Shown one piece after another: positions 2,290 to 28,070 of a DNA stretch of 64,000 bases. Numbering within the stretch: the stretch's first letter is position 1; each line of letters opens with the position of its first letter. The stretch comes from Egibacter rhizosphaerae. Its GTDB lineage: Bacteria; Actinomycetota; Nitriliruptoria; Euzebyales; Egibacteraceae. The stretch lies in the NCBI RefSeq assembly GCF_004322855.1, contig NZ_CP036402.1:2790001-2854000 (forward strand), in the 5' to 3' direction. A program made the position numbers and the translations under genes. A model generated the notes under the pieces. It did no database searches. It saw only the letters and a list, made by a program, of their open reading frames with translations, and was not told where the DNA came from.

Positions 2290-3642
2290 ATGGGCGCCAA
2301 GCGGGTCGGATGGCTGCTAGTGCTGATCGGCGGGGCGGCGTTGCTGCTCGCGGCCTGCGCGGACGACGCGGACGATGCCGTCGAGGACGATGCCGTCGAG
2401 GAGGCGGATGCGGCCGAGGACGACGACACGGACGATGACGACGACGATCCCGATGCCGCCGAGGCGGACGGGGACGAGGCGGACGAGGCGGACGAGGCGG
2501 ACGAGGCGGACGGGGACGAGGCGGACGAGGCGGACGGGGACGATCCCATCCTGATCGGTGGTGCGATCGACCAGTCGAACGACATGGCCCCGTTCGACGA
2601 GCCGGCGTGGGTCGCCGCGGAGATCGCCGCCGAGCGGATCAACGAGGACGGCGGTGTGAACGGACGGGAGATCGAGCTCACGGCGATCGACACCCAGCTC
2701 GACCCGGAGCGCACCCAGTCGGCCGCGCTCGACCTCATCGACGAGGGCGCGGACGTGCTGTTCGTGACCTGCGACTTCGACTGGTCGGTGCCGGCGGCGC
2801 AGGAGGCCTTGAACGAGGGGCTGCTCACGATCGCGCCCTGCATCGGCGACCCGATCTTCGGCCCCTCCGGCTTCGAGGGCGACCTGGGCCGGCTCGCGTT
2901 CACGTTCGGGAACGCGAGCTTTGCCGAGGGCGCCGCGCTCGCCGAGCTCGCCATGGACGAAGGGTGGGAGGAGACGATCACCGTCACCGACGACGCGATC
3001 CTCTACTTCCAGAACGTCTGCCGCGGGTTCACCGAGCGCTACGAGGAGCACGGCGGCGAGATCGTGCTCGAGGAGAGCTTCACCCAGGGCGACGGGACCG
3101 TCGAGCAGGTCACGGGCTCGGTGGCCGGGGGGGACAGCGACGCGGTGCTGCTCTGCAGCTTCCCACCGGACCTGCCGAGCTATCTCGCGCAGCTGCGCGC
3201 CACGGGCGTCGACCAGCCCCTGCTCGCCCCGTGGTCCGGGGACGGCGACTTCTGGATCGACGCCGTGCCCGACCTGAGCGACTACCACTACGCGACCTTC
3301 GTGTCCGTCTTCGGCGACGATCCCGAGGACGAGGTGAACGAGCTGATCGCGGCCTTCGAGGACCGCACGGGCGAGCCGCCGGCCACCGGAGGGTTCGTCA
3401 CCGGGGCGTCCGCGGTCCAGGCGATCGCCGAGGCGGTCGAGCGCGCGGGCACCACCGACGGGGAGGCGCTCGCCGACGAGTTCCTCGCCTTCGACGGGTT
3501 CGAGTCGGTCTCGGGGCCGATCACGTTCACCGAGGACGTGCACATCCTCACCGACCGGCCCTTCCGGATCATGGAGGTCCAGGACGGGGAGTACTCCGTG
3601 CGCGAGCTGCGGACGGCCGAGTCGCCGCCCATGCCGGAGTGA
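2290..3642 (+). CDS. ABC transporter substrate-binding lipoprotein, branched-chain amino acid type
   Basis: The 450-residue protein starts with a lipoprotein signal peptide (hydrophobic core, lipobox LAAC about residues 21-24). An extremely acidic linker of Asp, Glu and Ala to about residue 82 follows, then a periplasmic-binding fold of the Peripla_BP_6/LivK type. The linker DNA contains GAGGCGGAC units, four in direct tandem at 2476-2511. It should be anchored outside the membrane and feed the permeases and ATPases encoded just downstream. ATG 2290 is supported by GGGGAGG about 9 bases upstream. An amino acid or aromatic acid ligand is possible; the upstream monooxygenase favours the latter only by context. 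Confidence 0.88.
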   Translation: MGAKRVGWLLVLIGGAALLLAACADDADDAVEDDAVEEADAAEDDDTDDDDDDPDAAEADGDEADEADEADEADGDEADEADGDDPILIGGAIDQSNDMAPFDEPAWVAAEIAAERINEDGGVNGREIELTAIDTQLDPERTQSAALDLIDEGADVLFVTCDFDWSVPAAQEALNEGLLTIAPCIGDPIFGPSGFEGDLGRLAFTFGNASFAEGAALAELAMDEGWEETITVTDDAILYFQNVCRGFTERYEEHGGEIVLEESFTQGDGTVEQVTGSVAGGDSDAVLLCSFPPDLPSYLAQLRATGVDQPLLAPWSGDGDFWIDAVPDLSDYHYATFVSVFGDDPEDEVNELIAAFEDRTGEPPATGGFVTGASAVQAIAEAVERAGTTDGEALADEFLAFDGFESVSGPITFTEDVHILTDRPFRIMEVQDGEYSVRELRTAESPPMPE

Positions 3643-3670
3643 GGACCAGCGTCAGACCGTGGGGCCGGCC

Positions 3671-4447
3671 GTGACCGACGCAGGGGAGCGCGGGGCGCCC
3701 GGCGAACCGGAGCCGGGGACCCTGCGCGCGGTCGACATCCACCGCGCCTTCGAGGGGATCGCGGTCCTGCAGGGCGTGAACCTCGAGGTGCGCCCGGGCG
3801 AGGTGCTCGGGCTCATCGGGCCGAACGGGGCTGGCAAGACGACGCTGGTCAACATCCTGACCGGCTTCGACGGGCCGGACCGGGGTGCGATCTGGCTGAA
3901 CGGCCGCGGGGTGACGCGCCTGCGGGCGCACCGCCGCGCGAGGCTCGGGCTCGCCCGTACCTTCCAGCACGGGCACCTCTTCGCGGGTCTCACGGTGCGG
4001 GAGAACATCGAGGCCAGCGCGTTGGGGGTCGGGGCGTCGCCGCGGGCCGCGCGCGCTCGCGCCGACGAGCTCCTCGCGCGGTTCGGGCTCGCGGATCAGC
4101 CCACTGCGTCGGCGGGCGTCCTGCCGCCGGGCCAGGAACGCCGGCTCGGGATGGCCCGCGCGCTCGCGACCGAGCCGCGCTACGTGCTGCTCGACGAGCC
4201 CGCGGCCGGCCTGAACGAGGCCGAGGTGCCGGCCTTCGAGGACGCGATCCGGGCGATGGGCGCCAGCGGGACCGGGGTGCTGTTGATCGAGCACAACGTC
4301 GCGATGATCCTCGCGCTCTGCGACCGGATCGTCGTGCTCGACCAGGGCGTGGTGATCGCCGAGGGCGACCCCGCGACGATCCGCGGCGACGACCAGGTGG
4401 CCGCCGCCTACCTCGGGCTCGCCACCGATCACGGTCCGAGGGGCTGA
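3671..4447 (+). CDS. Liv-type ABC transporter ATPase (LivG-like)
   Basis: This is one of two ATPases energising the importer. Walker A (GPNGAGKT, residues 50-57), Walker B with D175-E176 and the switch His (LLIEHN) are intact. The ABC signature is odd: LPPGQ (residues 151-155) replaces the LSGGQ or LSYGQ seen in this family, so the Ser that contacts the partner subunit's ATP is Pro. GTG 3671 has GGGG six bases upstream; GTG 3659 is an equally possible start. It follows the binding protein by 28 bases and precedes the second ATPase by 2 bases, so it is part of a five-gene transport operon. Confidence 0.88.
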   Translation: MTDAGERGAPGEPEPGTLRAVDIHRAFEGIAVLQGVNLEVRPGEVLGLIGPNGAGKTTLVNILTGFDGPDRGAIWLNGRGVTRLRAHRRARLGLARTFQHGHLFAGLTVRENIEASALGVGASPRAARARADELLARFGLADQPTASAGVLPPGQERRLGMARALATEPRYVLLDEPAAGLNEAEVPAFEDAIRAMGASGTGVLLIEHNVAMILALCDRIVVLDQGVVIAEGDPATIRGDDQVAAAYLGLATDHGPRG

Positions 4448-4449
4448 GG

Positions 4450-5154
4450 ATGCTCGCGATCGACGGGCTCGACGTGCGCTACGGCTCGGTGCGAGCGCTC
4501 CACGGGGTCACACTGCGGGTCGAGGAGGGGGAGGTCGTCGGGCTCATCGGCCCGAACGGCGCGGGCAAGTCCACCCTCCTGCACACCGTCATGGGCCTCG
4601 TCGCCCCCGCCGCGGGCGATGTCCGGCTGCGTGGGGACTCCCTCGTGGGTCGCCCCACCGAGCGGATCACGCGCTCGGGGGTGGCGCTGGTGCCGGAGGG
4701 ACGGCGGGTCTTCGGCCAGATCACCGTCGACGAGAACCTGCGGCTCGGCCTGCTCGGACGGCGCGACGCGGGCGGGGCGGACGACGACCTCGCCCGCGTG
4801 CACGAGCTGTTCCCGGTGCTGCGCGACTTCCGCCAGCGCAAGGCCGGGATCCTGTCCGGCGGTCAGCAGCAGATGCTCGCGATCGCCCGCGCGCTCTTGT
4901 CCCAGCCGGACCTTCTCCTGCTCGACGAGCCGTCGCTGGGCCTCGCGCCCGCGCTCGTCGAAGACGTGTTCGCCGCCCTGGAGGCGATCCGCGCCGACGG
5001 GCGGACCATCCTGATCGTGGAGCAGCGGGCCCAGCGGACGGTCGCCTTCGCCGACCGGACCGAGGTCCTCGCCGGCGGGGAGATGCGGCTCACGCTGGGG
5101 CCGGAGGACGCCGCGGCGACGGAACGAATGGCGGAGGCGTACTTCGGCGCATGA
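4450..5154 (+). CDS. Liv-type ABC transporter ATPase (LivF-like)
   Basis: The 234-residue protein has an intact Walker A (GPNGAGKS near residue 36), a canonical signature LSGGQQQ near residue 137, Walker B LLLLDEPSLGL and the switch His region. It is the usual short LivF partner of LivG. ATG 4450 comes 2 bases after the LivG-like stop, and its own stop overlaps the LivH-like start (ATGA at 5151-5154), so translation is probably coupled. In a heterodimer this subunit would supply the one normal signature motif. Confidence 0.92.
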   Translation: MLAIDGLDVRYGSVRALHGVTLRVEEGEVVGLIGPNGAGKSTLLHTVMGLVAPAAGDVRLRGDSLVGRPTERITRSGVALVPEGRRVFGQITVDENLRLGLLGRRDAGGADDDLARVHELFPVLRDFRQRKAGILSGGQQQMLAIARALLSQPDLLLLDEPSLGLAPALVEDVFAALEAIRADGRTILIVEQRAQRTVAFADRTEVLAGGEMRLTLGPEDAAATERMAEAYFGA

Positions 5155-6035
5155 CTTATCTCCAGCTCGCCATCGACGCGATCAGCCTCGGGATGCTCTA
5201 CGCACTCGTGGCCACCGGGCTCGCGCTCGTGTTCGGGGTGATGCGCCTCATCAACCTCGCGCACGGGGAGCTGCTCACCGCGGGTGCGTACAGCCTCACG
5301 CTGACCGCGGCATGGGCGACCGGGGCGCGCTTGCTCGTGTTGTTGCTGGTGGTGCTCGGCCTCGCGTTGGTGCTCGAGCGCGTCGCCTTCCGGCCGGTGC
5401 GGGACGCGAGCCCGGCGACGATGCTCGTCCTCACGTTCGCCATCGCGTACTTCCTGCAAGCACTGTCCCGCCTGCTGTTCACCGCGCAGGGGCGAGGTGT
5501 GCAGGTGCTCCCGATCCTCGACGCGCCCGTTCTCGCCGGGGACCTGCGCTTGCGCCTGCTCACCGTCGTGACCGCGGTGCTCGGGGCGGTGCTCCTCACC
5601 GCCACCGGGCTCTTCCTGACCCGTACGAGCACGGGCCTGCAGATGCGCGCGGCCGCCGCGGACTTCGAGACGGCCCGGCTGTTGGGGGTGAACGCGAACC
5701 ACGTCATTCGCACCGCGTTCGTGATCGCCGCGGTCCTCGCGGCCGCGGTCGCGGTGATCCTCGTCGTGCAGCGACCCACGGTCACACCGGACTTCGGCTT
5801 CCAGGTCACGATCGTCGGGCTCATCGGCGTCGTGGTCGGCGGCCTCGACCGGTTGGTGAGCGGCGCCCTCGGCGGCTTCCTCATCGGAGTCATCAACTCC
5901 GTCCTCGGCAACACGCTGCCGACCGACACGCGGGTGTTCCTCACCTCGTGGCTGTTCCTGGCGGTGATCGCCCTCTTGGTGCTGCGGCCCCAGGGGCTGT
6001 TCGCGCGCCGCGACGCGATGGCGGAGCGCGTCTGA
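5151..6035 (+). CDS. Liv-type ABC permease (LivH-like)
   Basis: This 294-residue inner-membrane permease has about eight hydrophobic segments and the LivH family pattern, including GLALVFGVMRLINLAHGEL near the N-terminus and a C-terminal LRPQGLFAR. It should form the translocation channel with the LivM-like subunit. It overlaps both neighbours by four or one bases (ATGA at 5151, TGATG at 6033), which shows tight operon organisation. Confidence 0.92.
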   Translation: MTYLQLAIDAISLGMLYALVATGLALVFGVMRLINLAHGELLTAGAYSLTLTAAWATGARLLVLLLVVLGLALVLERVAFRPVRDASPATMLVLTFAIAYFLQALSRLLFTAQGRGVQVLPILDAPVLAGDLRLRLLTVVTAVLGAVLLTATGLFLTRTSTGLQMRAAAADFETARLLGVNANHVIRTAFVIAAVLAAAVAVILVVQRPTVTPDFGFQVTIVGLIGVVVGGLDRLVSGALGGFLIGVINSVLGNTLPTDTRVFLTSWLFLAVIALLVLRPQGLFARRDAMAERV

Positions 6036-7090
6036 TGCGGGCACGGGTGCAGGCACTCTGGCCGTTGCTGGGGCCGGCGTCGCTCGTCGTCGTCGCCGCC
6101 GTGGGATCGCTGGGCCTGTCGAGCGGGCTCCAGTTCCAGATGCGGTTCGCGTTCGTGTTGCTCACCATCGTGGTCGGGCTCTACGTGTTCGTCGGCAACT
6201 CCGGCGTGGTGTCGTTCGGCCACGTCAGCTTCGTCGCGGTCGGCGCGTTCACGGCGGGTCTGTTGACGATCGCGCCGCCCCAGAAGCAGGCGTTCATGCC
6301 CGACCTGTTGCCGGTCCTCGCCGAGGCGCGCGTGTCGCCGCCGGTGGCCCTGCTGGCCGCGGCCGCGGTGGGCGGGATCATGGCCTTCCTGGTGGCGTTG
6401 CCGCTCATGCGCCTCTCCGGGCTCGCGGCGGGGATCGCGACGTTCGGCGTGCTGATGATCACCCTGAACGTGCTGCGCAACTGGGAGAGCGTGGGGCCGG
6501 GCGTGCGGACCATGACCGGCATCCCGCAGCACACCGGCCTCGCGGTGGCGGCTGGCGGGGCCCTCGTAGCGATGGTGATCGCGTTCGCCTACCAGCGCAG
6601 CCGGTTCGGGCGCCGGCTGCGCGCGGCGCGCGAGGACCACAACGCCGCGCGGGCGACCGGAGTCAACATCTACCTCGAGCGGGTTCGCGCCTTCACGCTG
6701 AGCGGGGTCATCGCCGGATTCGCCGGCGCGCAGCTGGCCCACCTGCTCGGGAGCATCAGCACGGAGCAGGTGGCGCTCGACCTCACGTTCGTGACCCTCG
6801 CGATGCTCGTCGTCGGGGGAACGGGCAGCCTGTGGGCGGCCGTCGCCGGGACCGGCGTCATCAGCTTCCTGAACCAGTTCCTGGGGGAGGCCGAGACCGG
6901 GTTGTCGTTCGGGTTGTTCGAGGTGACGCTGCCGACCGGTACGCGCCCGCTGATCGTGGCCGGGGTCATGGCCGGGATGCTGATCCTGCGGCCCCAGGGC
7001 ATCACCGGAGGCCGCGAACTGCCGTGGCCCCGCCGCCCGGACACCGCGGCGGGCCGACGACGACGCCGGACGGCGAGGGAGGCGGCATGA
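6035..7090 (+). CDS. Liv-type ABC permease (LivM-like)
   Basis: The 351-residue protein has around nine membrane segments. It carries the LivM conserved block SGVVSFGHVSFVAVGAF and the cytoplasmic loop with RAAREDHNAARATGVN, which couples to the ATPases. The Arg-rich C-terminal tail after LILRPQG is unremarkable. ATG 6035 overlaps the LivH-like stop codon by one base. It completes a K-G-F-H-M importer whose ligand is unknown. Confidence 0.92.
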   Translation: MRARVQALWPLLGPASLVVVAAVGSLGLSSGLQFQMRFAFVLLTIVVGLYVFVGNSGVVSFGHVSFVAVGAFTAGLLTIAPPQKQAFMPDLLPVLAEARVSPPVALLAAAAVGGIMAFLVALPLMRLSGLAAGIATFGVLMITLNVLRNWESVGPGVRTMTGIPQHTGLAVAAGGALVAMVIAFAYQRSRFGRRLRAAREDHNAARATGVNIYLERVRAFTLSGVIAGFAGAQLAHLLGSISTEQVALDLTFVTLAMLVVGGTGSLWAAVAGTGVISFLNQFLGEAETGLSFGLFEVTLPTGTRPLIVAGVMAGMLILRPQGITGGRELPWPRRPDTAAGRRRRRTAREAA

Positions 7091-9470: not shown

Positions 9471-10610
9471 ATGCGCAGACCCACCGTGCTGTGGCTCCTC
9501 GCGCTGATGGCCGTGCTGGCCCTCGCCGCTGCTGCGTGCGCCGAGGACGAGCCCGACGAAGCCGCCGGCGACGCGGAGGACGAGCCGGACGACGAACCCG
9601 ACGAGGAGCCCGACGACGAGCCGGACGACGAGCCGGACGACGAGCCGGACGAGGCGGCCGAGAGCGTCGAGCTCACCTACGCGTTCTTCGCGCCCGAGGG
9701 CACGTTCCCCGCGGTCCAGATGCAGGAGTGGGCGGAGCGGCTGCAGGAGCGGACCGAGACCGACGTCGAGGTGGACATGTTCTTCGGCGGAACCCTGCTC
9801 GAGGCCGGGGACATCTACTCCGGCGTGCAGCAGGGGACCGCGGACATGGGCCTCGGCTCGCCCGGCTACGACACGGGACAGTTCCCGCTCATGTCGGGCA
9901 TCGCCCTGCCGGTCGGATTCCCGAACGCGACGGTGGCGAGCGTGACCCTCTGGGATCTCCTCGAGGAGTTCGAGCCCGACGAGCTCTACGACGACTTCAA
10001 GGTGCTCACGGCGTTCACCACCGAGCCCGCGCATCTCATGACCATCGACCGCGTCGAGGGCGTCGAGGACGTCGAGGGCACGGACATGCGGGCGACCGGG
10101 AGCGGCATCCCGGTCCTGGAGGCGTTCGGCGCGAGCGGGACCGGCATGCCGATGCCGGAGGTCCCGGAGGCGGTCGAGACCGGGGTCATCGAGGGGGTGC
10201 TCACCTCCCGCGAGACCCTGGAGGACTTCGCGCTCGCCGAGAACCTCGGCTACACGGTCGATCACCCGACGGTGGTGAACTCCTTCGCTGCGGTCATGGA
10301 CCTCGACCAGTACGAGGGCCTGCCCGCCGACGTCCAGGAGGCCATCGACGGGCTCGGCCCCGAGATGGCGGAGTGGACCGGCAACTACCACGACACCGAC
10401 AACGTCGAGGGCGCGCTCGAGTGGGCCGATCAGGAGCACGGCCACGAGATCGTCGAGCTCGACGAGGACGAGGCCGAGCGCTGGGACGAGCTCATGGAGC
10501 CGATCACCGAAGCGTGGCTCGACGAGGCCGAGGACGCGGGGCTCCCGGGCGACGAGTTCCACGAGCGCATGCTCGAGCTCCGCGACGAGCACGCCGAGGA
10601 GCACGGATAG
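9471..10610 (+). CDS. TRAP transporter substrate-binding lipoprotein (DctP-like)
   Basis: This 379-residue extracytoplasmic binding protein belongs to a sodium- or proton-driven TRAP system. A lipoprotein signal (lipobox AAAC, residues 19-22) is followed by a Glu/Asp/Pro linker to about residue 63, encoded partly by three exact 12-bp GACGACGAGCCG units (9612-9647), then the DctP fold. The segment GTDMRATGSGIPVLEAFGA holds the region where the family's substrate-carboxylate Arg lies (MRATG). ATG 9471 has AGGGAAGGA just upstream. Unusually, the Q and M subunits are separated from it by a dehydrogenase gene. Confidence 0.88.
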   Translation: MRRPTVLWLLALMAVLALAAAACAEDEPDEAAGDAEDEPDDEPDEEPDDEPDDEPDDEPDEAAESVELTYAFFAPEGTFPAVQMQEWAERLQERTETDVEVDMFFGGTLLEAGDIYSGVQQGTADMGLGSPGYDTGQFPLMSGIALPVGFPNATVASVTLWDLLEEFEPDELYDDFKVLTAFTTEPAHLMTIDRVEGVEDVEGTDMRATGSGIPVLEAFGASGTGMPMPEVPEAVETGVIEGVLTSRETLEDFALAENLGYTVDHPTVVNSFAAVMDLDQYEGLPADVQEAIDGLGPEMAEWTGNYHDTDNVEGALEWADQEHGHEIVELDEDEAERWDELMEPITEAWLDEAEDAGLPGDEFHERMLELRDEHAEEHG

Positions 10611-10766
10611 CCCGGGCGGGTTGCGGGCTGATCCGCCCGCAGCCCGCCCGCCACCGTGGGACGATCGACGGCCACGACGTCAGGAGGGGCGAGTGGGGAC
10701 ACCACCGCGGACGCCCCCTCGCTCCGGTGCTGAGCGAGCGGAACCGGCGGGATCCGGACGCGACCG

Positions 10767-11828
10767 TTGAGCGTGGTCGCGGTGCTCGGCGGCGGCAACG
10801 GGGCGCATGCCGCCGTGGTCGACCTGCAACTCAAGGGCTATCGCGTCGCGTGGTGGCGTCGCGACGCGGGGGCCTTCCCCCCCGACGGGTGCCTCCGCTA
10901 CACGGGGATCCTCGGCGAGGGCGAGATCACCGTCGAACGGTGCACCGACGTCCTCGCCGAGGCCGTCGAGGACGCCGATCTCGTCGTCGCGCCGCTGCCG
11001 GCCGACGCGCAACCGCCGCTGCTCGACCGGCTCGCGCCCGCCCTCCGGGACGGGCAGGCGGTCGCCTTCACGCCGGGCACGTTCGGCTCCTGGTTGGGAG
11101 CGCAGCGGCGGCCCGGGGTCACGTTCCTCGAGACCGGGACGCTGCCGTACCTCGCGCGCGTGACCGCCCCCGGCGAGGTGTCGATCCCGGTCGTCGCGAC
11201 CCGGCTGCCGACCGGTTCGATCCCCGGGGAGGGGCCGGCCGCGGACGCGGCCCACGAGGCGTTCGCGGCCGCCTACCCGTCGGCCGTTCGCGTCAGCGAC
11301 GGGTGGGACGCGGCGCTGTGCAACTGGGGGCCGGTGCTGCACCCGCCGCTGATCGTGCAGAATCTCGGCGCGATCGAGTCGCTCGGGGACGCGTTCGACA
11401 TCCATGCGGCCGGGACGTCCGAGGGCGTGGTCCGCACGATCCTCGCGGTCGACGAGGAGCGCATCGCGCTGCGGCGCACCCTGAACCTCCCCGGTGAGCA
11501 CTGGCCCATCCGCACGCACTACGACGAATCGCCCCAGGGGATGTACGGCAGCGACGCGAAGCGGCGTCTCGTCGAGAGCGGCCTGTGGCGGGAACGGCTG
11601 CACCCACGTCACCGCTACGTGACCGAGGACCTGCTCTGCGGGCTCGTCCTGACCGCCTCGTGGGGGCGCGCCGCGGGCCAGCCGATGCCTGTCAGCGAGG
11701 CCCTGCTGACGCTCGCGGCCCCGTCCCTCGGGGTCGATCCCTGGACGGAAGGGCGGAGCGCCGCCTCGATCGGCGCCGAGGACCTCGAGGTGCTCCGTGC
11801 CGCGGCACGCCATGGAGGGGGGCGATGA
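10767..11828 (+). CDS. Octopine/nopaline-dehydrogenase family NAD(P)-dependent oxidoreductase
   Basis: Opine dehydrogenases reversibly join an amino acid and a 2-oxo acid by reductive amination. The N-terminal Rossmann motif is GGGNGAHAAVVDLQLKGY with the NGxH pattern of this family. The C-terminal half fits the octopine-dehydrogenase domain: a catalytic-His candidate in VLHPP (PVPH in characterised members) and RYVTEDLLCGLV (family TEDVPYGLV). The 353-residue length fits. TTG 10767 or GTG 10773 may be the start. The stop overlaps the TRAP small-permease ATG (ATGA), placing this enzyme inside the TRAP operon, which suggests that the transported substrate is an N-carboxyalkyl amino acid or a related acid. 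That is inference. Confidence 0.8.
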   Translation: MSVVAVLGGGNGAHAAVVDLQLKGYRVAWWRRDAGAFPPDGCLRYTGILGEGEITVERCTDVLAEAVEDADLVVAPLPADAQPPLLDRLAPALRDGQAVAFTPGTFGSWLGAQRRPGVTFLETGTLPYLARVTAPGEVSIPVVATRLPTGSIPGEGPAADAAHEAFAAAYPSAVRVSDGWDAALCNWGPVLHPPLIVQNLGAIESLGDAFDIHAAGTSEGVVRTILAVDEERIALRRTLNLPGEHWPIRTHYDESPQGMYGSDAKRRLVESGLWRERLHPRHRYVTEDLLCGLVLTASWGRAAGQPMPVSEALLTLAAPSLGVDPWTEGRSAASIGAEDLEVLRAAARHGGGR

Positions 11829-12421
11829 GCAGCGAGGCGGCGGCACGGGGAGGACTCGACGAGCGGGTCGACCGGGTGAGCCGCCGCGCGAACGGTGCGC
11901 TGGCGACGCTGGCGGCCATCGCGGTGCTGTCGATCATGCTGCTCACGGTCGTGAACATGGTCCTGCGGTTCGCGGGCGCGCCGATCGCGGGCTCGTTCGA
12001 GCTCGTGGGGTGGCTGGCCGCCCTCACGAACGGTCTCGCGGTCGGCTACACGCAGACCCGGCGCGGCCACGTCGACATCGACGTGCTGACCCGGTTGATG
12101 CCCCTCCGCATCCAGGCCGTCCTGCGCGCCGTGATGACCGGGGTGGCCACGGGGTTCTTCGTCATCGTCACCTGGCAGCTCGTCGAGCACGGCCTGCACC
12201 TGCGCGACGTGGGGAGCCTCTCGGACGTGCTGCGCGTCCCCTTCTATCCGTTCACGTTCGCCGTGGCTGTCGGGTTCGCCGGGTTCGTCCTCGCGCTGTT
12301 CGCTGATCTCCTTCGGCACGGGCGGGAGGCGATGGTTCCGCGTCGTGAGGGCGATCGGACGGGGTGGACGGGGACGGCCACGGACATGGCCGACGACGAC
12401 GGGTCGGAAGGACGGGAATGA
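11825..12421 (+). CDS. TRAP transporter small permease (DctQ-like)
   Basis: The 198-residue membrane protein has four hydrophobic segments and the DctQ loop around TRRGHVDIDVLTRLMP, which fits the family pattern GHV.ID. It stabilises the large permease and links it to the binding protein. The last 25 residues are a polar, acidic tail beyond the usual end. The gene overlaps both neighbours by four bases. Confidence 0.9.
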   Translation: MSSEAAARGGLDERVDRVSRRANGALATLAAIAVLSIMLLTVVNMVLRFAGAPIAGSFELVGWLAALTNGLAVGYTQTRRGHVDIDVLTRLMPLRIQAVLRAVMTGVATGFFVIVTWQLVEHGLHLRDVGSLSDVLRVPFYPFTFAVAVGFAGFVLALFADLLRHGREAMVPRREGDRTGWTGTATDMADDDGSEGRE

Positions 12422-13707
12422 GCGATCTCGCGATCGCGGGCATCGGCGTCGTCGCGATGCTCGCGTTGATGCTGCTGCGCATGCCCGTCGCGTTCGCGAT
12501 GATGATCGTCGGGTTCGTGGGCGCCATGGTCGTGCTCACACCGGATGCGGCGCTCCAGTTGATCAGCGCCGACGTGTGGAACCAGCTCTCGGCGTTCAGC
12601 CTCAGCGTCATCCCGATGTTCGTACTCATGGGGCAGGTCGCCTACCGCTCGGGCATCACCCAGCGGCTGTACGAGACCGCCTACAACTGGCTCGGCCACC
12701 TGCCCGGCGGGGTCGCCGCCACGACGATCCTCGCGAGCATGGGCTTCGCGATGGTCTCCGGCTCGAACACCGCCACCACGGCGACGATGGGCACGGTGGC
12801 GCTGCCGGAGATGCGTCGCTACGGCTACGCGCGCTCCCTCGCGAGCAGCAGCGTCGCGATGGGCGGGACCCTCGGCGTGGTCATCCCCCCGAGCGTGGTC
12901 CTGATCGTGATCGCCATCCAGGCCGAGCTGTCCATCGGACGGCTGTTCGTCGCCGCGATCGCCCCCGGGATCATGCTCACGATCATGCTGCTCCTGACCG
13001 TCGTCGTCCTGTGCCGCCTGCGCCCCGAGCTGGGACCGCCGAGCGAGAAGGCCTCCTGGGGACAGCGGCTCGGCTCGCTCGGTGGTGTCATCGAGACGCT
13101 CGTGCTGTTCGCGCTCGTGATCGGGGGCTTGTACCTGGGCTGGTTTACCCCCACCGAGTCGGGCGCCATCGGCGCCTTCGGGGCGTTCGTGATCGGGTTC
13201 GCGCGCCGGAACCTGAACTGGGAGCAGATCAAGCTGGCCACGCTCGAGACGCTGCGGATCTCGGCGATGGTGATCCTCCTGCTCGCCGGCGCGGTCGTGA
13301 TCAGCCGCTTCCTGACCGTGACGCGCCTGCCGTTCGAGTTGGCCGAGTGGGCGGCGGACGTCGCCGTCGATCCCCTGTGGATGCTGCTGATGGTGTTGCT
13401 GATCTACCTGATCGGCGGCCTGATCATGGATGCGCTGGGCTTCCTCGTCGCGACGATCCCGATCTTCTTCCCGCTCGCGCTCGCGCTCGACTTCAACCCG
13501 ATCTGGTTCACCCTGCTCATCACGCTCGTGACGAGCCTGGGGGCGGTCACCCCGCCGGTCGGGGTCAACGTGTACATCGTGAGCTCCCTGGACCCCGACC
13601 TGGGCGTGGTGGAGGTCTTCCGGGGCGTCCTGCCGTTCATGCTCTCCTACGTGCTCGTGATCGCGTTGCTGATCGCCTTCCCGGGCATCGCGCTCTTCGC
13701 GCTCTAG
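12418..13707 (+). CDS. TRAP transporter large permease (DctM-like)
   Basis: This 429-residue protein has about twelve membrane segments and is the ion-coupled transport channel. It has typical DctM motifs: LLRMPVAFAMMIVGF at the start, SGSNTATTATMGTVALPEM in the middle, IPPSVVLIVIAI and TPPVGVNVYIV near the end. ATG 12418 overlaps the DctQ-like stop. Together with 9471 and 11825 it makes a complete TRAP system. Confidence 0.93.
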   Translation: MSDLAIAGIGVVAMLALMLLRMPVAFAMMIVGFVGAMVVLTPDAALQLISADVWNQLSAFSLSVIPMFVLMGQVAYRSGITQRLYETAYNWLGHLPGGVAATTILASMGFAMVSGSNTATTATMGTVALPEMRRYGYARSLASSSVAMGGTLGVVIPPSVVLIVIAIQAELSIGRLFVAAIAPGIMLTIMLLLTVVVLCRLRPELGPPSEKASWGQRLGSLGGVIETLVLFALVIGGLYLGWFTPTESGAIGAFGAFVIGFARRNLNWEQIKLATLETLRISAMVILLLAGAVVISRFLTVTRLPFELAEWAADVAVDPLWMLLMVLLIYLIGGLIMDALGFLVATIPIFFPLALALDFNPIWFTLLITLVTSLGAVTPPVGVNVYIVSSLDPDLGVVEVFRGVLPFMLSYVLVIALLIAFPGIALFAL

Positions 13708-13740
13708 CACCCATCCCCCGACGTCGAGGAGGAGACAGCG

Positions 13741-14811
13741 ATGATCCAGCCCTACTCCGCGGTCGGCCTGATCCCCACGGTGCGGGGGATCAGGACCCGC
13801 GACGACATCCAGCGCAACCTCGATCACCTCGCCGAGCTCGTCACCGCGGCCTCGTGGCTGTCGAGCATGGACCTGCCGGTCCGCCTCGTCATCGTGCCGG
13901 AGGGCGCCCTGCAGGGCTTCAACGACGAGGTCCTCGATCTGCACCACGAGACCTTCGCCCGGGAGTGCGCGATCGACCTGCCGGGCAAGGAGACCGAGTT
14001 CCTCGGCGACCTCGCGCGCAAGTGGGGCGTGTACCTCATGGCCCAGGCGAAGGTCCGCCACCCGGAGTTCCCCGGCCGCTTCTTCAACGCCGGGTTCGTC
14101 CTCGACCCGCAGGGCGAGTTGATCCTCATCCACTACAAGGTGGTACCGCTGCTGCCGGTGGAGCACTCGGTGACCCCGCACAACGTGTGGGACCGGTGGG
14201 TCGAGCTCTACGGCGAGACGCTCGACGCCTTCTACCCGGTTGTCGACACCGACATCGGCCGCCTCGGCGTCATGATGGCCAACGAGGGCTCCTACCCCGA
14301 GAACGCGCGCGGCCTCGCGATGAACGGGGCCGAGGTGGTCTACCGCGCGTCGTACCCGCACCCGCACACCGGCAACGAGCTGTTCGAGGTCCAGAACCGG
14401 GCGCGGGCGCTCGACAACAACTTCTACGTCCTCGCGCCGAACATGGGGACCTACTACCTGCACGCCGAGGACGAGCTGCCGATCGACACGTTCGGCGGGC
14501 GGTCGATGATGTGCGACTACAAGGGCCGGGTCGTGGGCCAGCAGGACTACGGCGCGGGTTCGACCTACATCGCCGGACAGATCGACGTCGAGGCGCTCCG
14601 GGACTTCCGCACGCGGGCCCAGATGAACAACTGGATGAAGGATCTCACCACCGAGCAGTACCGGCTGATCTACGACCAGCCCGTGTATCCGAAGAACCTC
14701 TACCTCGATCGTGAGCCGTACGACCACGCGGATTACAAGGCACAGGTGACCGACCGGCAGATCGAGTACCTCGTCGAGCGCGACATCTACCGCTGGCCCG
14801 AGGGTCGGTGA
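13741..14811 (+). CDS. Nitrilase-superfamily protein lacking the catalytic cysteine
   Basis: The 356-residue protein has the carbon-nitrogen hydrolase fold. Glu (E54, in IVPEGALQG) and Lys (K133, in HYKVVP) of the Glu-Lys-Cys triad are in place. Where the family has the nucleophile (pattern GVxICYDxxFPE) this protein reads GVMMANEGSYPE, so Ala180 (codon GCC at 14278-14280) replaces Cys. The rest of the core (NARGLAMNGAEVV) is well conserved and the frame is intact, which argues for a maintained but non-hydrolytic role, or a different nucleophile. ATG 13741 follows AGGAGGAGA. It is 33 bases after the TRAP large permease and probably cotranscribed, so it might sense or bind the transported amide-like substrate. 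Confidence 0.85.
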   Translation: MIQPYSAVGLIPTVRGIRTRDDIQRNLDHLAELVTAASWLSSMDLPVRLVIVPEGALQGFNDEVLDLHHETFARECAIDLPGKETEFLGDLARKWGVYLMAQAKVRHPEFPGRFFNAGFVLDPQGELILIHYKVVPLLPVEHSVTPHNVWDRWVELYGETLDAFYPVVDTDIGRLGVMMANEGSYPENARGLAMNGAEVVYRASYPHPHTGNELFEVQNRARALDNNFYVLAPNMGTYYLHAEDELPIDTFGGRSMMCDYKGRVVGQQDYGAGSTYIAGQIDVEALRDFRTRAQMNNWMKDLTTEQYRLIYDQPVYPKNLYLDREPYDHADYKAQVTDRQIEYLVERDIYRWPEGR

Positions 14812-14869: not shown

Positions 14870-15337
14870 ATGGACATCGTGCTCGGCTACGTCGACACCC
14901 CACACGGTCAGCGGGCGCTCGACGAGGCGACGGCGCAGGCCCGCGCGCACGGCGCCCGGCTGCACGTGGTCGTGTGCGACACGACGAGCGTCGGCGAGCA
15001 CGCCTCGCAGGCCCGGGATCGGGAGGAGGGGGTCGCGGCGGCGGCCGAGCGGCTCGACGAGCTCGTCGCAAGGCTCGTCGACGACGGTCTCGACGCTCGC
15101 GGCGAGGTGGTGCGCGACGACCGCGACAGCGCCGGTGCAGCGCTCGTGGACTACGCGACGCGCGCCGAGGCCGATCTGATCGTGGTCGGGGTGCGCAAGC
15201 GCTCCCGGGTCGGCAAGCTGCTGCTCGGCAGCAACCTGCAGGACGTCATCCTCGCGGCGCCCTGCTCGGTGCTGGCGGCCAAGCCCGCCGACCCCGCGTC
15301 GGGCGGCACCGTAGGTGGTGAGGAGCCGTCGGCGTGA
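14870..15337 (+). CDS. Universal stress protein (UspA family)
   Basis: The 155-residue single-domain Usp has an N-terminal IVLGYVDTPHGQRALDEA strand-helix. It also has the ATP-binding loop GVRKRSRVGKLLLGS, which fits G-x2-G-x9-G(S/T) loosely (the second Gly is missing), and a terminal APCSVLA strand. ATG 14870 is taken because GGAG lies five bases upstream; a GTG 33 bases earlier is possible. It lies at the end of the first TRAP operon. Confidence 0.85.
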   Translation: MDIVLGYVDTPHGQRALDEATAQARAHGARLHVVVCDTTSVGEHASQARDREEGVAAAAERLDELVARLVDDGLDARGEVVRDDRDSAGAALVDYATRAEADLIVVGVRKRSRVGKLLLGSNLQDVILAAPCSVLAAKPADPASGGTVGGEEPSA

Positions 15338-15392: not shown

Positions 15393-16384
15393 ATGCGGTT
15401 CGGGCTGCAGCTGCACGGCACCCTCGAGCTCGAGCAGTTCCCGGCGCTAGCGAGCCGAGCGGAGGCGCTCGGGCTCGAGGACGTCACCTTCCACGACACC
15501 TTGATGCGCCGACCCGTGTGGCCCGTGCTCTGCGACATCGCGCGGGCCACCGAGCACGTGCGCGTCGGGCCGAACGTCACGCACCCGTTCGTGCAGCACC
15601 CGGCCGTGATCGCGACGAACTGCGCGCACCTCGACGAGGTGTCGGGGGTCGTGCGACGCTCGGCCTTGGACGCGGGTCGCTCTACTCCCTGATCGGCGAG
15701 CGTCACCGCGGCTCGCTGCAGGGGCTCACCGAGGCCGTGCACGTGTGCCGGATGCTGCTCGAGGGCGACGACACCCCGTGGCAGGGGGAGGTGTTCGCGC
15801 TCGGACCGGGTCACGGGTTGAAGTTCGGGACGCGCCGGCGCGTGCCGATCTCACTCGGGGTCTTCGGACCGAAGGGCTGCCGCCGCGCCGGCGCGATCGC
15901 CGACGGCGTGCGAGCCGCGGCGCAGTGGGACCCCGCGTACATGTCCCGGGCGCGCGAGTGGATCGCCGAGGGGGCGCGGGAGGCCGGTCGTGACCCCTCG
16001 GCGGTGGAGGTCGTGCTCGAGAACTGGACGTGCCTCGACGCCGACCGTGAGCGCGCGCGAGCCCGGGCGCGGGAGGTGCTCGCCACGTTCCTGCCGGAGT
16101 TGGGTCCGCTGCTGTCGTTCTACGAGATCCCCGACGTCGAGGTGCAGGCCGCCCGCGACGCCACGGTTCACGGGGACCGCGACGCGCTCGCGACGATCAG
16201 CGAGCAGACCATCGATCGGTTCATGGCCGCGGGCGACGCCGACGACCTGCGTCGCGGGCTCGGTCGGCTCGAGGCGGCCGGCTTCGACGCGGTGTCGTTC
16301 TCCGGGATCCTCGGCCCGCGACCCGAAGACGCCTTGGAGATCCTCGGTGCCGAGATCGCACGTCGGGCGGAAGCGACCCGCTGA
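15393..16384 (+). pseudogene. Luciferase-like (F420-type) monooxygenase, frameshifted
   Basis: Two overlapping frames make one luciferase-like flavin or F420-dependent oxidoreductase of about 330 residues. The first (15393-15692) encodes MRFGLQLHG through HLDEVSG; the second encodes GRATLGLGRGSLYSLIGERHRG onward to 16384. The break is a run of five G at 15644-15648; six would restore EVSGGRATLGLGRG, the family's conserved loop. It is thus a one-base deletion in a homopolymer, either real decay or a sequencing error. The rest shows normal codon use and no other lesion. ATG 15393 starts 55 bases after the Usp gene. Confidence 0.85.
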
Positions 16385-17876: not shown

Positions 17877-19124
17877 ATGCAGCACTGCCTCACGGATCGG
17901 CAACGGGAGATCGTCGAGCTGGCGGGCCGGCTCGCCGACACGTTCGCGGAGCGTGCCGACGGTCCCGACCGGGAGAACCGCTTCCCGGTGGAGAACTACG
18001 AGGACATGCGCGAGACCGGGTACCTGCGCCTCACGGTGCCCGAGGAGCTCGGTGGGTACGGCGCCGACTTCCACGAGCTCCTGCTCGCGCAAGAGCGTCT
18101 CGCGATGGGCGACGGCGCCACGGCGCTCGCGGTGAACATGCACGTGTCCCCGGTGGGGCAGTGGGCCGCGATTTGGCGCGAGACGGGCAACCCCAAACTC
18201 GAGGAGTTCCTGCGGGCGGTGGCCCGCGATGAGATCGTCTGGGCGTCGATCACCTCCGAGCGGGGCGTCGGCAACGACCTCACGGACTCGACCGTCACCG
18301 CCGAGCGCGCGGACGGGGGCTACCGCGTGAACGGCCGGAAGATCTTCGGGACCAACTCGGCGGTCGCGACGCACTTCTCGTTCACGGCGCGCACCGAGGA
18401 CCACGAGCACGGGCCGCGGGTGCTGCTGATGCGCACGGCGATGGGCGAGGAGGCCGTCGAGATCAAGCAGACCTGGGACACCCTCGGCATGCGCGGGACC
18501 CAGAGCAACGACCTCGTGTTCACGGATCTGTTCGTGCCGGACGAGGACGTCGTGCACTCGATGCCCGTCGGGCACTTCGACGCGACGGTCCTGAAGACGG
18601 CGTTCGCCCGCGGGATCGCGACGTTCGGGGCCGTCTACATCGGCATCGCCGGCGGCGGGATCGAGTGGGCCCGGCAGATGGTCCTCCAGCGCGGCCGAGA
18701 GACCGACCCGGTCGTCCAGCACATCTTCGGGGAGGTGGAGCTGTTGCAGGAGTCGGCGCGGGCGATGCTCTACCGGCACGCGCAGGAGGTGATGTCCGGG
18801 GACCTGTTCGACAAGTACTCCGTGCAGGAGGGCCTCGCCCGCACCTCGCTGTCGAAGGCCGTGTGCGCGAACAACGGGCTGCAGATCATGCAGCGTCTCG
18901 TCGACGTCGTCGGGGGCCCGGCCTACATGAAGCGGTTCCCGTTCGAGCGCATGCTCCGCGACAGCCTGGCCGGCCCGATCATGCCGTACAACAACGTCGA
19001 CACCCAGCGCATGCTCGGCGCGACGAGCCTCGGCGTGCAATTGAAGCCGGAGATCCCGCCCGACGAGTCCGGCCACGGCAGCCGGCCGCACACCGACGAG
19101 CTGGTGGGCAGCGGCGAGGCCTAG
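17877..19124 (+). CDS. Acyl-CoA dehydrogenase family flavoprotein
   Basis: The 415-residue protein has all three acyl-CoA dehydrogenase regions. They are the N-terminal helical domain (VPEELGGYGADFHELLLAQE), the middle beta domain with the FAD-contact segment IVWASITSERGVGNDLTDS, and the C-terminal helical domain with LVDVVGGPAYMKRFPFERMLRD. It would transfer electrons from a thioester, or a related substrate, to an electron-transfer flavoprotein; some members act instead as monooxygenases. ATG 17877 has GAGGAAGG upstream. It stands next to the TrmB-type regulator and an SDR. Confidence 0.88.
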   Translation: MQHCLTDRQREIVELAGRLADTFAERADGPDRENRFPVENYEDMRETGYLRLTVPEELGGYGADFHELLLAQERLAMGDGATALAVNMHVSPVGQWAAIWRETGNPKLEEFLRAVARDEIVWASITSERGVGNDLTDSTVTAERADGGYRVNGRKIFGTNSAVATHFSFTARTEDHEHGPRVLLMRTAMGEEAVEIKQTWDTLGMRGTQSNDLVFTDLFVPDEDVVHSMPVGHFDATVLKTAFARGIATFGAVYIGIAGGGIEWARQMVLQRGRETDPVVQHIFGEVELLQESARAMLYRHAQEVMSGDLFDKYSVQEGLARTSLSKAVCANNGLQIMQRLVDVVGGPAYMKRFPFERMLRDSLAGPIMPYNNVDTQRMLGATSLGVQLKPEIPPDESGHGSRPHTDELVGSGEA

Positions 19125-22833: not shown

Positions 22834-24441
22834 ATGAGCGAGCCGACGATCGCCGCGCCGGGGGCGCACCCCCTGCGCGCGCTGAGCCCGCGCGACCGCA
22901 CCGTGCAGGAACTCGTCGTGCGGCAGTTCCGCGATCGGGCCGACGACCCGCTCCTGCGGGGGCCGGCCGACCGAACGTACGGGGAGACCCACCGGCAGGT
23001 GGCCGGGGTGGTCGCCTGGCTCGAGGCTCGCGCGGTGGGCGAGGGCGAGCGGGTCGTGGTCGTGAGCGAGAACCGGGTCGAACTGCTCGACCTGTTCCTC
23101 GGCTGCGCGTTCGCCGGGGCGATCTACGTCCCGGTCAACCCCTTCCTGCGCGGCGAGCAGCTGCGCCACCAGCTCGAGGATGCCGCGCCCACGCTGGTCC
23201 TGTGCGAGCAGGGCACCCACGACCAGGTCCGTGAGGTGCTGACCGGGTTCTCCGACCCACCCGAACTGCTCGTGCTGGGGGAGGGGACCTGGGAGCTCGA
23301 TGGCGCCACGCCACCGCGGCCGTCCACGCGCGAGCTCTCCGCCGGTCACCCGCCCAGCCACCCCACCGGGGTGCTCTACACGTCCGGGACGACCGGGCCC
23401 TCCAAGGGAGTGGTCTGCCCCGCGGGCCAGTTCTTCTGGTGGGGGGTGCTGACGGCCGAGTACCTCCGGCTGCGGCCGTCCGACCACCTCTACACGACCC
23501 TGCCGCTCTACCACATCAACGCGCTCGGGGCGTACCTGCAGGCGATCGGGGTCGGCGCCTCCTACACGTTCCGGCGCGGGTTCTCCGCGTCGCGATTCAT
23601 CGCCGAGGCCCGGGAGGCAGAGGCCACGGTCACCTATCTGCTCGGCGCGATGCTCACGATCCTCTGGAAGCAGGAACCGAGCGAGCGGGACCGCGAGCAC
23701 GATCTACGGGTGGCCCTCGCGCCCGCCACCCCGCCGGACATCTTCGAACGCTTCCGGGAGCGCTTCGGGTTCGACCTCGTCGACGGCTTCGGCATGACCG
23801 AGCTGAACCTCGTCGTCTCCTCGCTCCCGGAAGCCACCCGCCCGGGGCGCATGGGGTGGGTGCTCGACGACTTCGAGGCGCGTGTCGTCGACGACGAGGA
23901 CATCGAGGTCTCCGACGGCGAGCCCGGTGAGCTGGTGGTGCGGCCGCGGGAGCCGCACAGCATGTGTCAGGGCTACTGGCGCCGGCCGGAGGCGACGGCC
24001 GAGGCGTGGGCCAACCTCTGGTTCCACACCCAGGACCGCGTGGTGCGCGACGACGACGGCGCGCTGCGCTACCTCGACCGGATGAAGGACGCGATCCGCC
24101 GACGGGGGGAGAACATCTCCAGTTTCGAGGTCGAGGCGGTCGTCGCGAACCACCCGGCGGTCGCCGAGGCGGCCTGCATCGGGGTACCGTCCGAGCTCGG
24201 CGAGGAGGAGGTCATGGTCCACGTGGTGCCGCAGCCGGGCGAGCAGCCATCGGGCGAGGACATCGTGCGGTGGTGCGCCGACCGTCTCGCGCACTTCGCG
24301 GTGCCGCGCTACATCGCGGTCGTCGGCGACCTCCCCCGCACGCCGAACGGGAAGGTGCGCAAGGCCGCGCTGCGCGAACAGGGCGCGGCCACCGGGACGT
24401 TCGACCGCGAGGCGGCGGGCGTCGAGATCCGGCGCGGCTGA
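22834..24441 (+). CDS. AMP-dependent acyl-CoA synthetase/ligase
   Basis: The 535-residue ANL-superfamily enzyme activates a carboxylic acid with ATP and CoA. It shows the P-loop-like LYTSGTTGPSKG (about residue 183), the A5 motif GFGMTE, the hinge LDRMKDAIRRRGENISSFEVE and the catalytic Lys in TPNGKVRKAAL. It most resembles the CaiC/FadK group, so a medium-chain, carnitine-like or aromatic acid is plausible. It opens a three-gene unit with a thiolase-like and a DUF35 protein, which together suggest side-chain shortening by beta-oxidation-like chemistry. Confidence 0.9.
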   Translation: MSEPTIAAPGAHPLRALSPRDRTVQELVVRQFRDRADDPLLRGPADRTYGETHRQVAGVVAWLEARAVGEGERVVVVSENRVELLDLFLGCAFAGAIYVPVNPFLRGEQLRHQLEDAAPTLVLCEQGTHDQVREVLTGFSDPPELLVLGEGTWELDGATPPRPSTRELSAGHPPSHPTGVLYTSGTTGPSKGVVCPAGQFFWWGVLTAEYLRLRPSDHLYTTLPLYHINALGAYLQAIGVGASYTFRRGFSASRFIAEAREAEATVTYLLGAMLTILWKQEPSERDREHDLRVALAPATPPDIFERFRERFGFDLVDGFGMTELNLVVSSLPEATRPGRMGWVLDDFEARVVDDEDIEVSDGEPGELVVRPREPHSMCQGYWRRPEATAEAWANLWFHTQDRVVRDDDGALRYLDRMKDAIRRRGENISSFEVEAVVANHPAVAEAACIGVPSELGEEEVMVHVVPQPGEQPSGEDIVRWCADRLAHFAVPRYIAVVGDLPRTPNGKVRKAALREQGAATGTFDREAAGVEIRRG

Positions 24442-24460
24442 GCGACGGGACGTGACGGGG

Positions 24461-25627
24461 ATGCGGGTGCGGCGGTTCGATCGGGCGGGCATCACCGGGC
24501 TCGCCGAGTTGCCGGTCCGCGTGCGCGGCGAGACCCGGCAGACGATCGAGCTGCTCGGTGAGGCCGCGCGCGGTGCGGTCGGCCGTGCCGGCGTCGCATG
24601 GGAGGACGTCGACGGCCTCGCGCTCGGGGGGTTCACCCTCGGGCCGGATGGGGCGGTGCACGTCGCGACCCGCCTCGGGTTGCAGCCACGGTGGCTCGCC
24701 CCCCAGGACCCGGGGGGCGCGAGCGGGGTCGCGGCGGTGCTCGCGGCCGCGCGCGCGGTCGAGGCCGGCGACGCCGACGTCGTCCTCTGCGTCGCCGGCG
24801 ACGCGCTCGACGGGCCCGCCCTCGTCGACCTCGGCAAGCGCTTCAGCGCGGACACCCGCGATTGGCTGACCCCGATCGGGGCCGAGCCCGCGAACGTCAC
24901 GTTCGCGCTGCTCGCCGACCACTACCTGCGGGCGCACGGGCTCACCCGCGCCGACATGGGCGTGGTCTCGGTGCTCCAGCGCCGTCACGGCGCGATGAAT
25001 CCGAACGCGGTGTTCGGTGACCCGATCGCGCTGTTCGACTACCTCGGCGCGCCGCCGGTCGCCACGCCGCTGCACCTTCTCGACTGCGTGCGCCCGGGGT
25101 CGGGCGCCAGCGCGGTGGTGGTGCAGAAGGTCAGCCGGCGGCGGTCGTCACGACCGCGCGGGGTTCGGGTGCTGGCGGGCGCGGAGGCCCACGGCGCGGC
25201 GCCCGAGTGGCCGCCGCGCGAGCTGGGCTGGCGCGGGTTCGTCGACGACCTCTTCGATGCGGCCGGGATGATCCACGACGACCTCGACGTGCTCGAGCTC
25301 TACGACGACTATCCCTTCATGGTGCTCTGGCAGCTCGAGGAACTCGGGTTCTGCGCGCCCGGTGGGGCCTCCGCGTGGCTGCGCAACCACGATCTCGGTG
25401 TCGCCGCGCCCCCGGCGCTGAACACCGGCGGCGGCATGCTCGCGTGCGGGCAGGCCGGCGCCGCCGGCGGGTACGTGCCCGTCGTCGAGGCGGCTCGACA
25501 GCTGCTCGGCACGGCGGGCACCCGACAGGTGCCGGGAGCGCGCCGCGGTCTGGTGAGCGGGCTCGGCATGGTCCGGTACGGCGCGCCGTTGTCGGTGAGC
25601 GCGATGATGCTGGAGACGATCCCGTGA
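24461..25627 (+). CDS. Thiolase-like protein (SCPx type, Cys-less N-terminal loop)
   Basis: The roughly 388-residue protein has the thiolase fold. The nucleophile loop reads DPGGASGVAAV, with Gly where classical thiolases have Cys. The C-terminal segment reads LNTGGGMLACGQAGAAGG in place of NPSGG...GHPLG. Such divergent members usually work as a heteromer with a DUF35 zinc-ribbon partner, as in steroid side-chain aldolases and related retro-aldol enzymes; the adjacent gene encodes exactly that partner. ATG 24461 is used, although GTG 24452 is possible. A retro-aldol or C-C lyase role on a CoA thioester is therefore favoured over true thiolysis. Confidence 0.82.
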   Translation: MRVRRFDRAGITGLAELPVRVRGETRQTIELLGEAARGAVGRAGVAWEDVDGLALGGFTLGPDGAVHVATRLGLQPRWLAPQDPGGASGVAAVLAAARAVEAGDADVVLCVAGDALDGPALVDLGKRFSADTRDWLTPIGAEPANVTFALLADHYLRAHGLTRADMGVVSVLQRRHGAMNPNAVFGDPIALFDYLGAPPVATPLHLLDCVRPGSGASAVVVQKVSRRRSSRPRGVRVLAGAEAHGAAPEWPPRELGWRGFVDDLFDAAGMIHDDLDVLELYDDYPFMVLWQLEELGFCAPGGASAWLRNHDLGVAAPPALNTGGGMLACGQAGAAGGYVPVVEAARQLLGTAGTRQVPGARRGLVSGLGMVRYGAPLSVSAMMLETIP

Positions 25628-26293: not shown

Positions 26294-27484
26294 ATGCACA
26301 CGACCAGGACCCCCGCACACCCGCGGATCCCACGTCGCCCTCGCGCGGCGCTGCTCGTCGTGGGGCTTCTCGCCCTCGCGCTCGCGCTCGCGGCGTGCGC
26401 CGAGGACGAACCCGACGACGCCGTCGACGAGCCCGACGATGACGTCGAGGAACCCGAGGACGAGCCCGACGACGACGACGACGACGCCGCCGACGATCCT
26501 GCCGACGGCGACGCCGACGAACCCGACGAGGACGCTGACGATCCCGAGGACGAAGCCGACGAGGACGGCGACGAGCCCGAGGAGGTGACCCTCGAGTTCG
26601 TGACCGCGTGGGAGGATGACTCGGACGAGGTCCAGGGGTTCTGGCAGTTCGCCGAGCGCCTGGAGGAGGAGGCCCCCTGGATCGAGCTGGAGTACCGGGG
26701 CGGCCCCGAGACCTTCCCGAACGATCAACAGGGTGAGGCGGTCCGGGACGGTGCGGTCGACATGTCCGTCGTGGCGGCAACCTACTACACGCAGAACATG
26801 CCGTTCGCACACGCCATGAAGCTCACGCCCTTCCTGCCCGAGGAGGAGCGCGAGCACGGCATCTACGACCTCTACCGGGAGCAGCACCGCGAACACCTCA
26901 ACGCGCACTACCTCGGCAAGACGAAGGCGAACACGCCGTTCTTCCTGTACTCGAACGAGCCGATCGAGTCCGCCGACCTGAGCGGCTTGCGGGTGCGCGT
27001 GTCCCCGGTCTACGAACCGTTGGTGCAGGAGCTCGACGGTTCCGCGGTCTCCATGGCCCCCGACGAGGTCTACACCGCGTTGGAGCGTGGCGCCGTCGAC
27101 GCGTTCGGCTGGCCGGCGACCGGTGTCACCGACCGCGGCTGGGAGGAGGTCACCGAGTACGAGCTGCGGCCCGGCTTCTACGAGCTGGACGTCGGCGTGA
27201 TCGTGAACATCGATGTGTGGGAGGGCCTCGACGAGCGGACCCGGGAGGCCATGACCGACGCGATGGAGGAGACTGAGCGCGAGATCCCCGACTTCTACGA
27301 GGAGTCCCTCGAGGAGGAGGTCGCCGAACGCGAGGCGGCGGGCATGGAGATCATCGAGCTGCCCGACGACGAGGCCGAGGCCTTCCTCGAGGCCGCCGAT
27401 CGGGCCGGCTGGGAGGACGCGATCGAACAGGCCCCGGAGGCCGAGGAGTTCCGCGAGCTCATCGAGGAGATCGAGGGCGAGTAA
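26294..27484 (+). CDS. TRAP transporter substrate-binding lipoprotein (DctP-like)
   Basis: The 396-residue protein has a twin-Arg-free lipoprotein signal with lipobox LAAC near residue 34. It then has an exceptionally acidic linker of about 60 Asp/Glu/Pro/Ala residues and a DctP fold. The conserved Arg region appears as SGLRVRVSPVYEPLVQELDGSAVSM, and DEVYTALERGAVDAFGWP matches the family's YTALQ.G.VDG segment. The C-terminus is also Glu-rich. An ATG at 26294 follows AGGAGG. DctQ- and DctM-like genes follow directly, making a complete second TRAP system. Confidence 0.9.
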   Translation: MHTTRTPAHPRIPRRPRAALLVVGLLALALALAACAEDEPDDAVDEPDDDVEEPEDEPDDDDDDAADDPADGDADEPDEDADDPEDEADEDGDEPEEVTLEFVTAWEDDSDEVQGFWQFAERLEEEAPWIELEYRGGPETFPNDQQGEAVRDGAVDMSVVAATYYTQNMPFAHAMKLTPFLPEEEREHGIYDLYREQHREHLNAHYLGKTKANTPFFLYSNEPIESADLSGLRVRVSPVYEPLVQELDGSAVSMAPDEVYTALERGAVDAFGWPATGVTDRGWEEVTEYELRPGFYELDVGVIVNIDVWEGLDERTREAMTDAMEETEREIPDFYEESLEEEVAEREAAGMEIIELPDDEAEAFLEAADRAGWEDAIEQAPEAEEFRELIEEIEGE

Positions 27485-27525
27485 GCGCGGGCCGCGCCCA
27501 AAGACGCGTGCCAGAGAGGGGAGCC

Positions 27526-28068: not shown

Positions 28069-28070
28069 CG

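Follow-up and report, generated by a model that had tools for sequence, protein, structure and literature searches.

A TRAP operon of Egibacter rhizosphaerae with an opine-dehydrogenase-like gene and a Cys-less nitrilase homologue, possibly devoted to the uptake of an indolic acid

A five-gene operon for a tripartite ATP-independent periplasmic (TRAP) transporter was analyzed in a 64,000-nt stretch of the Egibacter rhizosphaerae genome (NZ_CP036402.1, 2,790,001 to 2,854,000, forward strand; hereafter the window). The operon may serve to import an aromatic, most likely indolic, monocarboxylate and not an opine, a reading based on sequence comparison to which we give about an even chance. It draws on three lines of evidence: the relatives of the binding protein DctP, the genes that neighbor relatives of the opine-dehydrogenase-like gene (opDH) carried between the TRAP genes, and the genes that neighbor the family of the nitrilase homologue at the operon end. 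This last family, in which the catalytic Cys is absent, is the more unusual part of the operon.

Layout of the operon

Five genes, all on the + strand, were confirmed by open reading frames and Pfam in the order given by an earlier note on this DNA, i.e. binding protein, opDH, small permease, large permease and nitrilase homologue:

9471-10610, + strand: dctP, TRAP substrate-binding lipoprotein with an acidic Asp/Glu/Pro linker (PF03480, E 1e-28)
10613-10650, + strand: perfect 16-bp GC hairpin with no T-run, directly 3' of the dctP stop (z -2.6)
10767-11828, + strand: opDH, opine-dehydrogenase-like NAD(P) enzyme (PF02317, E 1e-21)
11825-12421, + strand: dctQ, small permease (PF04290, E 4e-19)
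12418-13707, + strand: dctM, large permease (PF06808, E 8e-98)
13741-14811, + strand: Cys-less (Ala180) nitrilase-superfamily homologue (PF00795, E 1.5e-31)
14870-15337, + strand: universal stress protein (PF00582, E 2e-18)

DctP, DctQ and DctM all score above their family cut-offs, and P is parted from QM by opDH. The opDH gene begins with TTG (an alternative GTG lies at 10773), and its stop overlaps the dctQ start, as the note had stated; the overlap is 4 bp, the same as that between dctQ and dctM. The nitrilase homologue follows dctM after 33 bp that contain a GGAGGAG ribosome site, and a terminator scan of the operon returned no terminator-like site. This anatomy supports the note's proposal of a dedicated uptake-and-processing operon. 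The hairpin is located inside the 156-bp gap between dctP and opDH and is probably an mRNA stabilizer or a partial terminator between dctP and the downstream genes; hairpins behind binding-protein genes are a usual means by which transporter operons raise the binding protein over the permease. The universal-stress-protein gene, 58 bp downstream of the nitrilase homologue, may be the last gene of the operon. A luciferase-like monooxygenase (LLM) gene at 15393-16384 is broken into two parts in different frames (15393-15692 and 15518-16384), as would result from a frameshift or a sequence error. Behind the lipobox, DctP (9530-9665) and the binding lipoproteins at 2290-3642, 26360-27484 and 37604-38752 have extended acidic Asp/Glu/Pro repeats in common, perhaps as an adaptation to salt.

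Relatives of DctP and of the opine-type dehydrogenase

The closest solved structures to DctP are 4pgn, 4pgp and 4nap, all of the Dde_0634 type (E 8e-70, 225-239 bits), with crystal ligands that we take to be indole-pyruvate, indole-acetate (IAA) and D-Trp. They are the best relatives by a wide margin, as the next distinct group reaches only E 4e-30 and 109 bits. Binding of IAA by Dde_0634 is stated in PMC9973260, in which the PDB code 4PGP is also given. Arg207 of DctP is conserved at the position that usually contacts the ligand carboxylate. The window operon thus has a substrate-binding protein of the same subfamily as the Dde_0634-type system, together with P, Q and M, but differs from it by the presence of opDH between P and Q and of the nitrilase homologue at the end.

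The opDH protein aligns over its full length with N-(1-D-carboxylethyl)-L-norvaline dehydrogenase (CENDH, 1bg6; E 1e-25), although distantly (94 bits). It scores above the PF02317 cut-off, contains the Rossmann glycine motif GGGNGA, and its His192 and Asp288 align with the catalytic His202 and Asp297 of CENDH, so the note's assignment to the opine-type dehydrogenases, with a predicted intact catalytic pair, was upheld. A literature search on opine dehydrogenases with TRAP transporters found nothing relevant.

The loci of opDH relatives were characterized, like all related loci described below, by tblastn with checked proteins or from the record annotation. The nearest plasmid relatives of opDH (37-44% identity) are paired with a 3-hydroxybutyryl-CoA-dehydrogenase-like (HBDH) gene, and in three of the five annotated cases, all on proteobacterial plasmids (Paracoccus saliphilus, Azospirillum thermophilum and Pseudooceanicola algae), TRAP genes follow the pair. 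In these units opDH adjoins the TRAP genes as in the window; however, it lies outside P-Q-M, has an HBDH-like partner that is absent from the window, and is not accompanied by a nitrilase gene. The unit of P. saliphilus is part of an iad-like locus with IorA/IorB, the alpha and beta subunits of a ring-hydroxylating dioxygenase (RHO), a CoA ligase, a thiolase, two cyclases, two TRAPs and MarRs. PMC9613470 describes IorA/IorB as the markers exclusive to iad auxin loci. In Acinetobacter sp. SH20PTE14, the opDH-HBDH pair is immediately upstream of cat genes and a cluster that we label iac-type from its gene content, and in Burkholderia arboris an iacC-like dioxygenase gene (58%) lies ~8 kb from the opDH relative. 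The pair thereby flanks iac- or iad-type auxin degradation genes in Acinetobacter, Paracoccus and Burkholderia. Rokubacterial opDH genes (40-46%) adjoin branched-chain-type (LIV) ATP-binding cassette (ABC) importer genes and molybdenum-hydroxylase genes, and both gene types are also found in the genomic island around the operon.

The note had proposed a route for an N-carboxyalkyl amino acid or a similar compound, brought in by TRAP and bound or sensed by the dead nitrilase; in such a route, opDH would oxidize the opine to an amino acid and a keto acid. The PF02317 domain with both CENDH catalytic residues, the position of opDH between P and Q with its overlap into dctQ, and the recurrence of opDH with TRAP genes elsewhere would all fit such a route. 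Nevertheless, we regard an opine as quite unlikely, as the closest solved DctP relative is of a type that binds an indolic acid, the opDH relatives are found within or next to clusters for auxin degradation and not next to recognizable opine-utilization genes, and none of the 80 nearest nitrilase relatives is beside opDH or a TRAP of this type. Taken together with the neighbors of the nitrilase family, these relatives point instead to indolic or other aromatic carboxylates.

The Cys-less nitrilase family

The nitrilase homologue belongs to the CN_hydrolase fold according to PF00795 and Foldseek, in which the best matches of its AlphaFold model (mean pLDDT 76; loops 136-144 and 206-212 are poor) are formamidase and amidase structures. 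It shares with the aliphatic amidase/formamidase AmiF the fold and the aligned residues Glu54, Lys133 and Glu141, whereas the Cys nucleophile of AmiF is replaced by Ala180. The Glu and Lys of the Glu-Lys-Cys triad are retained and the Cys is Ala in all 86 rows of the Ala family, so the Cys thioester mechanism is not usable by this family.

The absence of Cys, already seen in the note, extends far beyond the window. The 80 nearest relatives from a search of genome contigs are 66-74% identical across nearly the whole length, and all 80 have Ala at the nucleophile position, within the motif [ML]MANE[GA]SYPENA. One of the six search peptides included this motif, so a plasmid search served as an independent check: Ala was also present in members with 54-58% identity (haloarchaea and Tsukamurella) and in a 39% member (Flammeovirga), and Cys in 37-46% members that belong to another group. 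Ala180 is retained not only by all of these close relatives but also by Ala members further away, which indicates that it is not due to chance. In an unrooted tree all Cys rows fall into a single supported group (96/96) and the Ala rows into two, with two changes required for the Ala rows and one for the Cys rows; a single loss of the catalytic Cys is likely, subject to the position of the root. The Ala group has no invariant Cys, and the nucleophile has therefore not just shifted to another position. Cys76 was considered as a relocated nucleophile and ruled out, since Gly or Ile occupies this position in 11 of the 86 rows. A set of 21 positions is at least 97% conserved among the Ala rows and not found in the Cys group, including H131, R174, P206, R222 and D225 (all but P206 also set the family apart from AmiF), and we take these as a sign of a new function under constraint and not of decay.

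Among the Foldseek matches are also NitN amidase structures with an artificial C145A mutation and a bound amide (4izs, 5ny7), which set an example of binding without turnover by a Cys-to-Ala protein. The role of binder or sensor suggested in the note is possible. A literature search on catalytically dead nitrilases found nothing relevant, and no described function was found for the Cys-less family. Its members are rare (one of 396 sampled genomes of the phylum, that one being the window's own) and spread over Actinomycetota, Chloroflexota, Acidobacteriota, Pseudomonadota, Bacillota, Rokubacteria, Bacteroidota and haloarchaea. Genes of the Cys-bearing sister group sit immediately behind M20 peptidase and amidohydrolase genes, which suggests a ring-opened amide or carbamoyl compound as the substrate of that group.

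Several neighbors of the Ala family have a common metabolic theme. At 28 of the 80 loci, from at least four phyla, the fetched flanks include a same-strand gene for a TrpB-like pyridoxal-phosphate enzyme (NCBIfam PRK12391, above cut-off); this is a count of loci and not of independent events, as many are from related Rokubacteria. In 9 of these 28, from alphaproteobacteria, another proteobacterium and an acidobacterium, the gene is no more than 170 bp away; the window genome's own TrpB-like gene sits elsewhere in the genome. In Tsukamurella, the family gene adjoins IorA/IorB and is separated by only 14 bp from the isatin-hydrolase homologue (E 1e-75) that it follows. Group E flavin monooxygenase genes occur at acidobacterial loci, several of which also have a short-chain dehydrogenase/reductase (SDR) 51-53% identical to that of the window.

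The note had counted a conserved gene neighborhood in other genomes as support for its reading. Recurrence was seen for opDH with TRAP genes, on the three plasmids described above, but not for the whole set: opDH or this TRAP type is beside the nitrilase gene at none of the 80 nearest loci, and the full five-gene set was not found among these loci, in the opDH search of 396 phylum genomes or in 50 genomes with a nitrilase relative. With the set so far seen only in this genome, the tie between nitrilase and TRAP rests on operon structure and the common metabolic theme, not on conservation. The nitrilase gene might therefore have been acquired alone and be unlinked to TRAP and opDH function, which would be compatible with either an indolic or another ligand and would fit the patchy occurrence of the family. 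We consider this rather unlikely, given that the gene is on the same strand after a short gap, with a strong ribosome site and no intervening terminator-like site, and that the isatin-hydrolase homologue, monooxygenase-SDR and TrpB-like neighbors match the metabolic theme.

The surrounding island and the proposed pathway

The operon is part of a catabolic island of ~55 kb, seen in the 20 kb upstream of the window and at window positions 1-39000. Its features include the following:

1-1212, + strand: group E (styrene/indole) flavin monooxygenase homologue, whose gene begins 165 bp upstream of the window (PF17885, E 1e-21)
1271-2062, + strand: SDR dehydrogenase that forms a pair with the monooxygenase, a pairing also seen in acidobacterial nitrilase loci
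2290-7090, + strand: LIV-type ABC importer (binding protein, two ATPases, two permeases)
22834-25627, + strand: CoA ligase and thiolase-like pair, 32% and 43% identical to the pair of the Paracoccus iad-like locus
26360-30278, + strand: second TRAP (P, Q, M) with an isatin-hydrolase homologue at 29493-30278 (PDB 5nmp, E 5e-76)

The monooxygenase is closest to 7z4x (E 1e-60), which we take to be the indole monooxygenase VpIndA1, with StyA (3ihm) at E 5e-22; together with the SDR it constitutes a putative iif-type pair (indole monooxygenase and SDR). The isatin-hydrolase-type cyclase, CoA ligase, thiolase and TRAP genes of the island are shared with iad/iac auxin loci, inside or beside which the opDH relatives were found. 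The island also contains a P450, an FAH-type gene, two genes of the creatinase/M24 type, several monooxygenases of the FAD and LLM kinds and molybdenum hydroxylase subunits (several of these names were assigned by eye), and its importers comprise three TRAPs, a LIV ABC and a NitT ABC. Two reverse-strand genes at 34513-35555, by eye maleate isomerase/arylmalonate decarboxylase-like, adjoin the NitT ABC importer.

Besides the absence of the five-gene set from the other genomes searched, several observations weigh against the indolic reading. DctP is related to the IAA binder at a distance only (239 bits), the opDH-HBDH pair of Paraburkholderia adjoins rhizopine-type (non-auxin) genes, and the isatin-hydrolase homologue and the monooxygenase belong to other transcription units, 8-15 kb from the operon. 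In addition, no IorA and no iad/iac-type RHO alpha were detected in the genome at E 1e-10, a search that had no positive control, so the locus does not qualify as a canonical iac or iad locus. Of the iad-type markers iorA/iorB and IadDE ring dioxygenase (PMC9613470), IorA and RHO alpha thus went undetected at the thresholds used, and of the iac-type set (IacA, IacC/D, IacE) no RHO alpha was detected and only one weak IacA-type match (23%, 18000-19049).

These missing markers, the number of importers and oxidoreductases within ~60 kb, and the 45% identity of DctM to a Thermus TRAP that adjoins catechol and 4-hydroxybenzoate genes would also fit a benzoate-like, arylpyruvate-like or unrelated acid as the substrate, with the indole-type genes as mere neighbors in a large mixed island. 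We consider this possible but somewhat unlikely, because the IAA-binding type is by far the best solved relative of DctP and the occurrence of opDH relatives at auxin loci is independent evidence.

Under the favored indolic reading, the extracellular ligand of DctP would be an auxin-like acid (indole-acetate, indole-pyruvate or a close aryl acid), which DctQM would carry in. The opDH enzyme, co-translated with the permeases, would then oxidize or reduce this acid or a derivative of its side chain, and its product may feed the adjacent island, i.e. the indole-monooxygenase-like enzyme, SDR, CoA ligase, thiolase and isatin-hydrolase homologue. The nitrilase homologue could perform Glu/Lys chemistry that involves no covalent Cys intermediate, or act as an amide or acid binder, in the same metabolism.

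Going further, and with considerable doubt, we propose that the Ala180 family may represent a new Cys-independent nitrilase-fold enzyme (Glu-Lys-Glu with His131/Arg222/Asp225) that acts on an indole- or tryptophan-derived compound, and that opine-type dehydrogenases may be unrecognized auxiliaries of auxin/indole-acid catabolism coupled to TRAP uptake. A nitrilase-fold family that has no nucleophile but keeps the rest of its site across bacteria and archaea is a test case of pseudoenzyme versus new chemistry. The link of opDH and TRAP genes to auxin-degrading loci would, if true, provide direct candidates for the indolic-acid importers that Conway et al. (PMC9613470) raised as a possible extra of iad strains.

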